This document shows positions 2,901 through 6,626 of a stretch of 64,000 bases of DNA, piece after piece (position 1 is the first letter of the stretch; every line of letters starts with the position of its first letter). The translations under genes and the position numbers were made by a program. Source of the stretch: Paracoccus cavernae (GTDB lineage: Bacteria > Pseudomonadota > Alphaproteobacteria > Rhodobacterales > Rhodobacteraceae); the NCBI GenBank assembly GCA_030410095.1, contig JAUFRC010000002.1, positions 1 through 64,000 on the forward strand, read 5' to 3'. The notes below the pieces were generated by a model. The model worked only from the letters and a program-made list of their open reading frames with translations. It was not told the origin of the DNA and did not search any database.

Positions 2901-3687
2901 TTATTGCGCTTGGGTGATCGCTTTAGCCGCAGCCCGCGCCGCCGCATGAACCGCGACCAGAAGCGGGGCTTCGAATTGCGGCTGAAGGCGCACGGCCGAG
3001 GCGGAAAGCGGACCGCCTCCCATGATCACGGCCGATGCACCATCCTTTGCGACCGACTCGGTAACGGCGGCGGCAAGAGCCGCATCCAAAGCCTCGGCCT
3101 GTTCGACCAGCACTTTCGGATCGCCCTCGGTCACACGGGTGCCGCGATATTGTGCCTCGTAGCCGAGCGAGGCGGCCTTTTCGCGAAAGCTCTCGATCAG
3201 CGCGGGATCGGGCGTGACCGTGACGATGCCGAAGGGGCGACCGTCGCGGGCGGCCTCGTGAAAGACCTCTTCGCCGATGCCGAAGACCGGCACATCGACC
3301 GCCTTGCGCAATTCGGCCAGACCCGGGTCGCTGAAGGCCGAGACGATGATCGCGCCGACACGGGGTCGGCCGCGGCCTCGCGCCCGATCGCCACAACGCC
3401 GGATGCCGCCGCCGCCATATCCTGCGGCGTGGTCAAAAGCGCGGGCGCGCCGGTATTCGAGCGTCCTCGACCACGGCGGCATCTGCCGCCGCGATCTGTG
3501 CCAACCCGGTCATGGATTGGGTGGCGGCCTCGTTGGAGTTGGGGTTGATAAGGACGATCACCCGTCCTCCATCCGCGTTCTGGTTGGCCATTGCCGTGCC
3601 TATCGTGCCGATTGTCAGGCCCGCGACGATGGCGCAAGCCGTCGCCAGTAGCCAGCGCCGCGACGGCGCGTTCGGGGAAAACGCCAT
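2901..3687 (-). CDS. Exported Asp/Glu/hydantoin racemase-fold protein lacking both catalytic cysteines
   Basis: About 262 residues. The N-terminus (MAFSPNAPSRRWLLATAC) is a twin-arginine-like signal ending near AMA. The mature part starts with VIVLINPNSN, the strand-loop typical of Asp/Glu/hydantoin racemases, and aligns along its length with the intact racemase at 5107-5805. At the first catalytic cysteine position the intact paralogue has VVACFDDPG and this one has IVSAFSDPG; at the second, VLGCAGM is replaced by IMGGGPL. Racemase chemistry is therefore unlikely, and a periplasmic binding or accessory role for the adjacent symporter is my inference. Two single-base deletions (near 3455 and 3370) split the frame. 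The start is 3 bases after the NCS1 stop. Confidence 0.7.
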
Positions 3688-3690
3688 GGC

Positions 3691-5055
3691 TCAGTTCTCC
3701 ATGAAGCGCTTGGCGCTCGGCAGTTTGTGCATGAGCACATAGTAGAGGATGCCCGAGGGCAGCAGGCTGGCGTACCACGAGATCCCCGAGAAGATCAGCG
3801 CCGCGGCGATACCGGCAGCCATGGCGATCATCGCGGCCATATTGACGCCCTGATAGGGCCCTCGGGATCATAGAGTTTCTCGAGGTTGAGCGTCTGTTTG
3901 CGGATGAAGAAGTAATCCACGATCAGGATGGCGAAGATCGGGCCGAGGAAAGCCGAATAGGTGCGGATGAACAGGTTCAGCCCGGCGGCGGATCTGTCCT
4001 TGACCAGCTCCCAAGGGAAGGTTGCGAAGGCCAGAAGACCGACCAGAACCGCCGAGGTTTTGAACTTGAGCTTGAAGATGTCCATCAGCGCATAGGCCGG
4101 CGGCACGACGTTGTTGAGGATGTTCGTGGTCACCTGCGCAAAGGCGATGAAGACCAGCGTGACGATCAGCAGGAATTTGTTGTCGACCGCGCTCGAGAAG
4201 ACCTTGATCGGATCGACTTCGCCGGTCGCGCCCGAGACCATCAGGCCGATCATCCCCATGAACAGCGTCGCGGGCAGGATCGAGTTGGCATAGATCGCGA
4301 CCTGACGCAGCGGCCCGACATCTTTGCGCAACTCGCGCGAATAGTCCGAGACGTTCAGCATCATCGTCGAATAGATCCCGAGGAAGAGCATCGTCGCGCC
4401 CCAGAAGGGTGCACCCCAGGTGCCTTCGACATTGATCAGATTGGCCGAAATCTGGTCGCCGTATTTGTTGATCACGCTGAAGAACATGTAGATCAGCGCA
4501 CCGATGATGAAGACCGAACCGATGTTTTCCAGCCATTTGATGCCGTGGAAACCCAGAACCGACAGGCCGATCTGCAGGAGTTGGAAGCCGATGAAGAAGA
4601 CCCAGATGTTGGAGAAACCGAACATGGTTTCCGACACGAGGTTCAGCGCGCCGGCACCGATCCAGCTTTGGAAACCGAACCAGACGATCGCAGGCACCGA
4701 GCGCACCAGCGCGGGAATGCGCGATCCGGTGAAGCCGAAGGCCGAACGGGTCTGGACCATGAAGGGGATGCCGTATTTGTGGCCCGCCTTGCCGTTGAAC
4801 ATCAGCGCGACACCGATGACCGTACAGCCGATGGTGATCGCGACGAAGGTCTGGAGCAGGTTCAGCGTACCGACCAGCCCCGAACCGATGGTGAAGGTCC
4901 CGATCGACACGCAGCCCCCAGCCACGCGAAGAGATAGGACCAGGGATCCATGATCCGTGTTTCTGCGGCGCAAGGCTTTCTTCGCCGATTGCCTTGTGCT
5001 CGATCGCACCTTTGCCGATCGCGGCGCCCTCCAGCGCCGTTGAATCCATTGTCAT
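3691..5055 (-). CDS. NCS1-family nucleobase/hydantoin/allantoin:cation symporter
   Basis: About 455 residues with a dozen hydrophobic helices. Segments such as GGCVSIGTFTIGSGLVG, PAIVWFGFQSWIGAGALN and a late EAGP-like hydrophobic region (FLGPIFAILIVDYFFIRKQ) fit the nucleobase:cation symporter-1 family (Mhp1, PuiP, allantoin permease). It imports a small heterocycle such as hydantoin, allantoin or uracil with a cation. The length is a multiple of three but three single-base deletions split it: two near the N-terminus (including CTGGGGGCTGC near 4915, needing one G) and one near 3860 (GGGCCCTATC, needing one C). Flanked by racemase-family genes on both sides in the same orientation, which suggests hydantoin or allantoin use. 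Confidence 0.85.
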
Positions 5056-5106: not shown

Positions 5107-5805
5107 TTATTTCGCGTTCGGGAACGCGTAGGCATTGATTTTGCTCGTTTTAAGCCCCGATCCGACCAGCGCTTCGATCATGCGGGTGGCGACGCTGACA
5201 CCGTCGATGACCGGAATGCCGGTTTCCTTGCTCAGCCATTCGGTCAGATCGGCCATGCCGGCACAGCCGAGAACCACGGCCTCGCAACGGTCTTCCTCGA
5301 TGGCGCGCAGGATCTCGTCGCGCACTTTGACGCGGGCGTTCGAGCCGGGCTCTTCCAGCGCCAGGACGGGGATCTCGGCCGAGCGCACGCGGCGACATTG
5401 ATGCGAGAGGCCGTAGCCGTGGATCAGATGCTCGATCACCGGCACCGAACGCGGCAGGGTCGTGACCACCGAGAACGAGGTCGAGAGCATGCTCGCGGCT
5501 TTCACCGCAGCCTCGCAGATCCCCAGAACCGGACCGGTTGCGATTTCGCGGCAGGCAGCAATGCCCGGATCGTCGAAACAGGCGACAACGATGCCGTCGA
5601 CGCCATTGGCCTCGGCCTCGCGGACCCGTGCCAAAAGACCCGGCAGCGACATGGCCTCGTCGTAGTGACCCTCGATCGAGGCAGGTGCGCCGCTTGCGGT
5701 CGCACCGTGGATGGTGGTGCCGGCGCTGGCGACGGCCCGCGCGGCATCGACGATTTTATCCGTCATCGATTGGGTTGAGTTCGGGTTGACGACCAGAATG
5801 TCCAT
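5107..5805 (-). CDS. Hydantoin racemase / Asp-Glu racemase family
   Basis: Intact 232-residue protein. It begins MDILVVNPNSTQSMT, and the ATG at 5805 has AGGAGG 6 bases upstream, which decides the start over an ATG 21 bases earlier. Both family cysteines are present (VVACFDDPG near residue 78 and VLGCAGM near residue 180), as needed for two-base proton abstraction at the alpha carbon of 5-substituted hydantoins or amino acids. The LGICEA segment is also typical. It is the first gene of the locus with the NCS1 symporter and the exported racemase-fold gene, and is divergent from the GntR regulator. Hydantoin or allantoin is the likely substrate class; no hydantoinase or carbamoylase is in the window. 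Confidence 0.85.
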   Translation of the reverse strand: MDILVVNPNSTQSMTDKIVDAARAVASAGTTIHGATASGAPASIEGHYDEAMSLPGLLARVREAEANGVDGIVVACFDDPGIAACREIATGPVLGICEAAVKAASMLSTSFSVVTTLPRSVPVIEHLIHGYGLSHQCRRVRSAEIPVLALEEPGSNARVKVRDEILRAIEEDRCEAVVLGCAGMADLTEWLSKETGIPVIDGVSVATRMIEALVGSGLKTSKINAYAFPNAK

Positions 5806-5818
5806 ATCTGCCTCCTGT

Positions 5819-5850
5819 GTTAACAACGATTGTTAACAATCACTGTTAAC
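5819..5850. promoter_or_regulatory. Three GTTAAC boxes at 13-bp spacing, likely GntR operator
   Basis: GTTAAC occurs at 5819-5824, 5832-5837 and 5845-5850, each exactly 13 bp from the last. The middle copy sits in a perfect 12-bp palindrome, ATTGTTAACAAT (5829-5840). The array lies directly upstream of the racemase ribosome site and between that gene and the divergent gntR gene. This is a natural place for autoregulation and repression by the GntR protein; that it binds here is inference. Confidence 0.65.
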
Positions 5851-5939: not shown

Positions 5940-6626
5940 ATGTCGGCGCTTCCCGAAGATCAGATCGTGAGCGCGATTCTGGACGCAGTTGCCGAGCAAC
6001 GTCTGCCTGCGGGCGCGAAGCTGGGCGAGCAGGCGTTGAGCGACCTTTTCCAGTGCAACCGCGCCAATGTGCGCCGCGCGCTGGCGACGCTGGCTGCGCA
6101 GAATGTCGTGGAATTGCGGCCCAATCGCGGCGCTTTCGTCGTCACGCCTTCGCCGCAGGAGGCCCGCGACGTCTTTCAGGCGCGCCGCGCGATCGAACGC
6201 ACCATCGCGCGTCAGGCGGCCAGCAATGCCAAGCCCGATGATATCGCCTATCTGCGCGAGAACATCCTTGCCGAATCGGAGGCCCATCGCCGCGCCGACA
6301 AGCCGACGGAGCTGCGTCTCACGCGGCAATTCCACATGTATCTGGCCCAGATTGCGGGCAACCACGTCCTCGAACGCTTCCTGTCGGAACTCACCATGCG
6401 CAGCACGCTGATCCTCGGGATCTATTCGCTGAGCGAACATTCCTGCGCCAGCGAGGCCGAGCATATGCGCATCGTCGATGCGCTTGAGGCCGGTGATACC
6501 GGGCTTCTGCTCGAACTGACCGACAGCCACTTGCGCCATCTCGAGGCGCATCTGAACTTCGACATTCCCCAGACCGCGGCGCTGAGCCTGCAGGACCAGC
6601 TCTTCCGCCACCCGATCGAGGCCTGA
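5940..6626 (+). CDS. GntR-family regulator, FCD (FadR/VanR) subfamily
   Basis: Intact 228-residue regulator. Residues 1-75 form the winged helix-turn-helix (AGAKLGEQALSDLF, then NRANVRRALATLAAQNVVELRPNRGAFV). The C-terminal all-helical FCD domain holds the metal/ligand residues of the family, including RQFHMYLAQIAGN and the paired HIDs near DSHLRHLEAHL. It is divergent from the hydantoin racemase/NCS1 locus and probably represses it in the absence of the imported compound. The GTTAAC array in the shared upstream region is the candidate binding site. The ATG at 5940 has a weak ribosome site. Confidence 0.88.
   Translation: MSALPEDQIVSAILDAVAEQRLPAGAKLGEQALSDLFQCNRANVRRALATLAAQNVVELRPNRGAFVVTPSPQEARDVFQARRAIERTIARQAASNAKPDDIAYLRENILAESEAHRRADKPTELRLTRQFHMYLAQIAGNHVLERFLSELTMRSTLILGIYSLSEHSCASEAEHMRIVDALEAGDTGLLLELTDSHLRHLEAHLNFDIPQTAALSLQDQLFRHPIEA

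Follow-up and report, generated by a model that had tools for sequence, protein, structure and literature searches.

Bacteria of several genera carry a conserved gene for a racemase-fold protein in which both catalytic cysteines are replaced and a signal-like N-terminus is added, and in about two dozen bacterial genomes this gene adjoins that of an allantoin-type importer. The protein is called RacX here, a name that we coined for the exported, Cys-less protein of the racemase fold. The reading that we tentatively put first is that RacX would be a binding protein for allantoin-type hydantoins that works outside the inner membrane and is linked to uptake by symporters of the NCS1 family. That RacX also docks to the symporter, which would make the pair a binding-protein-dependent NCS1 transporter whose binding protein came from a racemase fold after the loss of its thiols, is a more doubtful step. 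We infer a model in which RacX, without catalysing a reaction, would capture an allantoin-type hydantoin between its two domains, outside the inner membrane, and would either hand the ligand to NCS1 or concentrate it for NCS1, thus raising capture; the cytosolic HyuE racemase that is encoded in the same place would interconvert the enantiomers for a stereospecific allantoinase.

RacX gene and its relatives

The window, i.e., the whole stretch of 64,000 nucleotides of Paracoccus cavernae DNA that was analysed, contains the following features:

2901..3687, minus strand: RacX gene, encoding a racemase-fold protein and broken by two frameshifts in this assembly
3586..3687, minus strand: putative N-terminal signal of RacX, 34 residues up to TAMA, with the same type of N-terminus in 30/32 relatives
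3321..3338, minus strand: motif 1 of RacX, AFSDPG, Ala replacing the first catalytic Cys (Cys79 in the K. pneumoniae allantoin racemase)
3006..3020, minus strand: motif 2 of RacX, GGGPL, Gly replacing the second catalytic Cys (Cys184 in the same enzyme)
3691..5055, minus strand: NCS1-family symporter, directly upstream of RacX with a 3-base gap, partly out of frame
5107..5826, minus strand: HyuE-type racemase with CFDDPG and GCAGM, PF01177 at 6.3e-61, first gene of the trio, with its start probably at 5805
5940..6626, plus strand: GntR/FCD regulator, divergent from HyuE-NCS1-RacX

Close relatives of RacX (55-81% identical) were found in Paracoccus, Halomonas, Zobellella, Oceanimonas, Psychrobacter, Granulosicoccus and Tsukamurella. 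The scan of genome contigs yielded 39 loci, 29 of them at 56-81% identity, including the frameshifted L050; the ten loci L051-L060, with 27-36% identity or short matches of up to 43%, were unused. L010 and L013 (55%) were added from the genome sample and L148, L149 and L152 from plasmid records. The counting set comprised 32 close relatives, i.e., 30 with a signal and the doubtful L029 and L037, and L047 (56%, no signal) was grouped with 12 other cytosolic cousins (13 in total) and not with the 32. The neighbourhood set consisted of 33 loci which, minus the duplicates L084 and L087, gave 31 distinct ones; L050 was kept out of the alignments, yet was counted among the 31. Because they lie on the same contigs, L009, L011, L012, L084 and L087 duplicate L023, L027 and L046, and the H4 plasmid record is a near-copy of H3. 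Cousins with unclear starts (L019, L020, L078, L080, L081 and L082) were omitted, and among the HyuE rows L084 is a duplicate and L086 a partial sequence.

Racemase fold without catalytic cysteines

The catalytic sites were located by alignment to the allantoin racemase of K. pneumoniae, in which Cys79 and Cys184 are reported as the catalytic residues (PMC12661438). At the equivalent places the adjoining HyuE of the window has CFDDPG and GCAG. The replacement of both cysteines that had been described for the window, where RacX has AFSDPG and GGGPL, holds for the family, as Ala and Gly occupy the two sites in 32/32 close relatives and in all 13 cytosolic cousins, compared with Cys at both sites in 24/24 neighbouring HyuE rows (one of which is a duplicate record). 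The remaining motif residues, NPN, F-DPG and G-GG, were present in 100% of the exported rows. With Ala and Gly at the catalytic sites, RacX cannot use the two-thiol proton-transfer mechanism. For the related fungal enzyme OpaE, an activity of 4.8% is reported to be left in C90S and of at most 0.3% in C199S and in the double Cys-to-Ser mutant (PMC12661438).

By sequence and fold, RacX is a member of the PF01177 superfamily and is not a two-Cys racemase. Whole-domain matches above the curated cut-off were obtained for L024 (3.8e-43), L036 (1.4e-39) and L045 (9.4e-38), all over profile positions 1-211; PF01177 was the sole family over the cut-off in these three exported relatives, and no ABC, TRAP or TTT binding-protein family of Pfam matched them. 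The two cysteines of allantoin and hydantoin racemases are Ala and Gly in 32/32 relatives. The second site, at which arylmalonate decarboxylase (AMDase) has its catalytic Cys, is Gly in 32/32, with the AMDase site placed by alignment to the allantoin racemase and by the AMDase numbering; Gly74 and Cys188 of AMDase are named in the titles of structure entries. No reaction of the Asp/Glu racemase superfamily is known to dispense with Cys at both of these sites.

For the P. denitrificans relative, AlphaFold2 predicted the two-domain racemase fold (pLDDT 88.5). The closest matches of this model were the allantoin racemase structures 3QVK/3QVJ (Z 24.9/24.8, rmsd 2.5/2.4 over 219/217 residues), tied with the hydantoin racemase 2EQ5 (Z 24.7) and the P. 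fluorescens allantoin racemase (24.6). After these allantoin/hydantoin racemases (Z 24.5-24.9) came OpaE (21.6) and then AMDase (17.8). A Foldseek match to the sugar-binding protein 6gt9 (E 4.7e-5) had a TM of 0.30 and was not accepted as evidence.

In the tree of 67 rows, the 31 rows that were labelled exported, both doubtful ones included, formed one clade (99/95), and the cytosolic L047 was its nearest neighbour (100/100). The exported clade and L047 lay inside a Cys-less branch that was set apart from HyuE at 100/100. The tree is unrooted (with a midpoint drawing), several of its cytosolic rows are long branches, and it left out L084_hyu, a duplicate, and L013_exp, the frame of which is seemingly shifted inside. 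From this unrooted tree, the loss of the cysteines seems to be older than export. A recent duplication of the local HyuE was rejected as the origin of RacX because the two belong to separate branches (support 100/100). The dN/dS was 0.045-0.274 across nine pairs, which shows purifying selection. The RacX gene is real and conserved.

The cytosolic Cys-less cousins have the motifs AFGDPG and GGGPL (L071, L072, L073, L079, L083, L150, L151 and L153), and their neighbours are apparently Dpp-like ABC transporters, an MFS carrier, dihydropyrimidinases and a PuuE-like protein. The main alternative to pure binding is an activity that all of the Cys-less branch has in common. RacX might be a thiol-free periplasmic enzyme that, e.g., isomerises, decarboxylates or hydrolyses the ring of a hydantoin-like or urate-derived compound ahead of its uptake, which we regard as possible, if on the unlikely side. 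The strong conservation and low dN/dS would suit an enzyme, as would the dihydropyrimidinase, PuuE-like and transporter genes beside the cousins, which run contrary to the binding-protein reading, and decarboxylases and isomerases are both known within the superfamily. Room for a new activity is also left by residues that are fixed in the exported clade, common in the Cys-less cousins and rare in HyuE (e.g., R142, T150, T178, G180, P218 and L219) and by those special to the exported clade (N69, S111, K162, D193 and R225). Conversely, the absence of Cys from both sites departs from the known superfamily reactions, and the general base that such an enzyme would need has no established candidate in RacX.

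Gene neighbourhood and co-occurrence with NCS1

The NCS1 gene was located directly upstream of RacX on the same strand in 22/31 distinct loci; of the remaining nine, L047 has two NCS1 genes preceding RacX, and NCS1 was not near in eight. HyuE precedes NCS1 in 21/22 trio loci, and the contig of the 22nd begins inside NCS1. The HyuE-NCS1-RacX trio was present in two of the three plasmid records and absent in Tsukamurella. Among 20 loci, the gap between NCS1 and RacX was 3 bases in three Paracoccus loci, the same as in the window, and 66-208 bases in 16, and the genes overlap in L029. The GntR/FCD regulator probably controls the HyuE-NCS1-RacX genes; its position, divergent from these genes, recurs in the Paracoccus and Granulosicoccus loci, and in the Halomonas loci it is located elsewhere.

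The sample of 148 genomes that was centred on Paracoccus, with P. cavernae among them, included 24 with the NCS1 orthologue, six with exported RacX and five with both (Fisher p = 4e-4), with G051, which has NCS1 and a frameshifted RacX, counted as RacX-less. In the sample of 201 genomes that was centred on Halomonas saccharevitans, NCS1 was found in 124 and RacX in eight, and NCS1 was directly upstream in 8/8 (p = 0.025); several of these eight loci are already in the 31-locus count. The partner gene is therefore linked to the carrier gene across lineages (22/31 loci; 8/8 in the Halomonas-centred sample). For the two samples together, NCS1 was present in 13/14 RacX genomes vs. 135/335 others (Fisher p = 9e-5; neither this p value nor those of the single samples are corrected for relatedness), and no intact RacX was hit in 135/148 NCS1 genomes (19/24 in the Paracoccus-centred and 116/124 in the Halomonas-centred sample). 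These counts indicate that RacX depends on NCS1 far more than the reverse, i.e., that it is accessory, and RacX is best read as an optional partner of NCS1, since most genomes with the NCS1 orthologue are RacX-less.

Where NCS1 was not near RacX, six of the eight genomes carry an orthologue elsewhere (68-86% identity). Exported RacX without an NCS1 orthologue was found in G062 (best match 30%) and in Tsukamurella (31%), which, like the many NCS1 genomes without a RacX hit, counts against the binding-protein reading. In G062 (L086), exported RacX adjoins HyuE, an apparent Liv-type ABC transporter is located upstream in the place of NCS1, and both RacX and HyuE have apparent frame problems. The two exported lineages without the orthologue, the six further genomes without NCS1 nearby and the many NCS1 genomes that do without RacX would fit a protein that binds an allantoin-type ligand in the periplasm with no docking to NCS1, either as a buffer or as the sensing part of a signalling route. 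We consider this rather improbable, as NCS1 accompanies RacX in all but one of the RacX genomes of the two samples, often directly upstream, and no sensor protein was recognised by eye among the recurrent neighbours.

The setting of the genes points to urate and allantoin. Among nine Halomonas loci, PuuE was present in eight, PuuD in seven, HIU hydrolase in six and OHCU decarboxylase, which was identified in L036, in six, and AllE was found in four of the nine as well as in two Oceanimonas loci; in L029, L036 and L048, PuuD, HIU hydrolase, OHCU decarboxylase, PuuE and AllE all lie within the fetched 12.5 kb. A second NCS1 gene, whose best match is an allantoin permease below the cut-off, is often next in the Halomonas loci. 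In the ninth Halomonas locus, L043, RacX stands alone, and in that genome PuuD and PuuE flank the HyuE-NCS1 genes (L131). Contig C1 of the P. cavernae genome carries PuuE, AllE and HIU hydrolase; the AllB allantoinase model had no match over its cut-off in this genome, so PuuE is likely its allantoinase. Given this urate/allantoin setting, the ligand of a RacX that binds for NCS1 would probably be allantoin or a closely related compound. The oxidation of urate by PuuD is believed to take place at the cytosolic face (PMC4562309), and a periplasmic protein would thus meet imported, not home-made, allantoin. The urate/allantoin cluster of Halomonas saccharevitans also contains a second, divergent HyuE-like stretch (L036:2388-2996, 31% identity).

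N-terminal signal and export

A signal sequence, of the Sec rather than the Tat type, was found in 30/32 close relatives. In these 30 relatives, 30-50 residues precede the first strand, with a hydrophobic core of 1.57-2.57 (12-residue mean; 2.39 over 12 residues in the RacX of the window), compared with 0-9 residues in the cytosolic cousins and 0-11 in HyuE. The signal calls are heuristic (length, hydrophobicity and charge), and the label "exported" refers to the N-terminus given by a script that chose the first ATG within a set range; the start of L039 was shifted upstream by hand. In the RacX of the window, a further ATG directly precedes the mature part (MANQNADGG); the first ATG was favoured because it lies 3 bases after the NCS1 stop and the relatives have a similar extension.

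The preliminary description had proposed an added N-terminal signal of the twin-arginine type. The signal itself recurs in the relatives as given above. The SRRWL of the window fits the loose Tat pattern [ST]RR.[FLVIM], yet 0/30 signal-bearing relatives do, and only 5/30 have an RR pair near the start; Tat export was therefore dropped, the conserved feature being a Sec-type (or lipoprotein) signal. Homologues of the anticipated kind, with a racemase fold, missing cysteines, an export signal and an NCS1 neighbour, do exist across genera, only without the SRR/Tat pattern. The concern that resequencing could restore a Cys to the motifs or remove the signal is largely answered by these relatives, none of the 32 having either Cys and 30 having the signal. 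Both Tsukamurella proteins contain a lipobox-like VVGC/VAGC, and a Cys lies inside the signal core in several Gram-negative relatives (e.g., LGAC in five), for which lipid anchoring is possible. As far as the N-termini tell, the best reading is that RacX is exported, with a Sec-type signal in the Gram-negatives and a lipobox-like one in Tsukamurella.

The mature part, taken from the beginning of the first strand, was free of Cys in 31/32 close relatives (29/30 signal-bearing ones and both doubtful rows), the single exception being L013, the frame of which is apparently shifted inside; a Cys-free mature part occurred in 0/13 cousins and 0/24 HyuE rows. Two relatives were retained as doubtful. 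L037 has a signal-like stretch without a usual start codon, and in Halomonas sp. PR-M31 (L029:5700-6000) the start codon of RacX overlaps the stop of NCS1, so that a signal would not fit in, which makes this locus a natural contrast to its exported relatives.

Contrary to the binding-protein reading, the signal-less L029 and the cytosolic L047 both adjoin NCS1 genes, and the sampled members of the wider Cys-less branch are cytosolic. Such cases would agree with a RacX that stays in the cytosol, its signal unused or serving as an anchor only, e.g., as a regulatory subunit of HyuE or of the inner face of the symporter. This is nonetheless quite unlikely, considering the frequency of signal-like N-termini, the lipobox-like sites of both Tsukamurella proteins and the complete loss of Cys from the mature part, which is confined to the exported clade.

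Frameshifts and assembly

RacX in the window is read in three frames, within the ORFs 3433-3687, 3197-3871 and 2901-3482 of the minus strand, and its C-terminal part matches PF01177 (1.2e-28, profile positions 65-211), in agreement with the racemase-fold gene with two frameshifts that had been described at 2901-3687. NCBIfam gave no family for the RacX fragments of the window at E 0.1, nor for L024 at 1e-10. The NCS1 gene, which ends 3 bases upstream of RacX and is, as had been noted, its neighbour, is also partly out of frame in the window; its ORF at 3828-5009 matches Pfam PF02133, and NCBIfam TIGR00800 below the cut-off of that model.

Contig C2 (310,401 bases) begins with the window, and the end of C2 repeats its start, which indicates a circular replicon of approximately 255.1 kb with an untrimmed overlap. 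The repeat pairs window 1-55284 with G000:C2:255118-310401, and two stretches of it were aligned: the one that covers RacX, whose second copy is near C2:257-262 kb, had 19,387 columns, no mismatch and 17 gap bases, and the other had 15,414 columns with five mismatches and 16 gap bases. The differences between the copies are hence almost all gaps. One of the two RacX frameshifts is absent from the second copy (L003), and the other is common to both. The completeness score of the genome was 79%, as expected for an indel-rich assembly. We infer that the RacX frameshifts of this strain are sequencing errors; a genuine frameshift is possible.

That RacX might be an artefact, i.e., a decayed HyuE duplicate that owes its motifs and signal to sequencing errors, would accord with its two frameshifts, one of them in both copies, and with the broken frame of NCS1, but it is extremely improbable and is refuted at the family level by 29 genomes or plasmid records (of the 30 in the count, L013 being apparently frameshifted) in which RacX is unbroken and has these motifs and a signal, by a dN/dS well below 1, by the branch separate from HyuE and by overlap copies that differ almost only by gaps.

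Convergent with RacX, at 2058-2843 of the window, is an aspartate-dehydrogenase-like gene, the longest ORF of which begins at TTG and the second assembly copy of which is broken further along. It was rejected as a conserved neighbour, as its tblastn matches were only in the genome's own copies.

Comparison with known systems

RacX resembles the allantoin racemases of K. pneumoniae (3QVJ/3QVK) and P. fluorescens (5LFD/5LG5) in its predicted fold (Z 24.5-24.9), in the positions of its motifs and in its allantoin/urate gene setting. It differs from them in its predicted export, in the replacement of both catalytic cysteines and in being only approximately 20-23% identical. The fold is also shared with the arylmalonate decarboxylase and maleate isomerase branches (Z about 17-18), which are known to have at least one Cys, unlike RacX with none at either site. 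AMDase genes are often found near genes for TTT, TRAP or ABC transporters (PMC4996985).

If the binding-protein reading is right, RacX-NCS1 would, like TRAP and TTT systems, combine a periplasmic binding protein with a secondary carrier; unlike in those systems, the carrier is an NCS1 protein and RacX stands outside the binding-protein families in Pfam. It has its carrier family and likely substrates in common with Mhp1 and other NCS1 hydantoin/allantoin carriers. NCS1 carriers have the LeuT fold and are not elevator carriers, and no NCS1 carrier is known to use a soluble partner.

A parallel, if RacX does bind for NCS1, is TAXI-GltS of Bordetella pertussis, in which an exported soluble protein is encoded tightly beside an unrelated secondary symporter and in which the argument likewise proceeds from gene context and coupling (PMC12344293). 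For TAXI-GltS, unlike for RacX so far, a nanomolar ligand affinity was measured and natural gene fusions are reported, and its binding protein is of the TAXI type (PMC12344293). According to its authors, soluble binding proteins had been known, before TAXI-GltS, for no secondary carriers other than TRAP and TTT; the secondary carriers for which a binding protein is known are regarded as elevators, some property of this mechanism might be a requirement, and further classes would test that (PMC12344293). Set beside the LeuT fold of NCS1 carriers, this elevator pattern counts against the binding-protein reading.

RacX-NCS1 is a concrete candidate outside this elevator-only pattern. If RacX does serve NCS1, soluble partners would not be limited to secondary carriers of the elevator type, as a LeuT-fold carrier would be served; RacX would give the NCS1 importer family a novel type of helper and would illustrate a route from an enzyme fold to a transport protein. 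It also bears on bacterial allantoin uptake. Among the matches listed from the open-access literature, the titles and the starts of the abstracts named no exported or Cys-less hydantoin racemase and no NCS1 binding protein. An ocean survey counts the allantoin NCS1 permeases of SAR11, with a periplasmic partner unmentioned in the part of it that we draw on (PMC11698098).

Distribution and annotation of RacX

In a phylum-wide draw of 398 genomes, a RacX match at the level of the clade was found in the P. cavernae genome only, and eight other matches were more distant, which indicates that RacX is rare and is a further point against the binding-protein reading. Among the 30 plasmid records listed, 22 call the protein "aspartate/glutamate racemase family protein" and eight are without annotation; this name is probably misleading as to activity. 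In Paracoccus sp. WLY502 (G051; L050/L126), a frameshifted RacX is located downstream of HyuE and NCS1, owing to either decay or a sequencing error. The Tsukamurella RacX proteins (L045 and L149) are actinobacterial, have the lipobox-like site and lack an NCS1 neighbour; they were perhaps acquired from Proteobacteria. In T. tyrosinosolvens, RacX is carried on a 416 kb plasmid record amid sugar genes.
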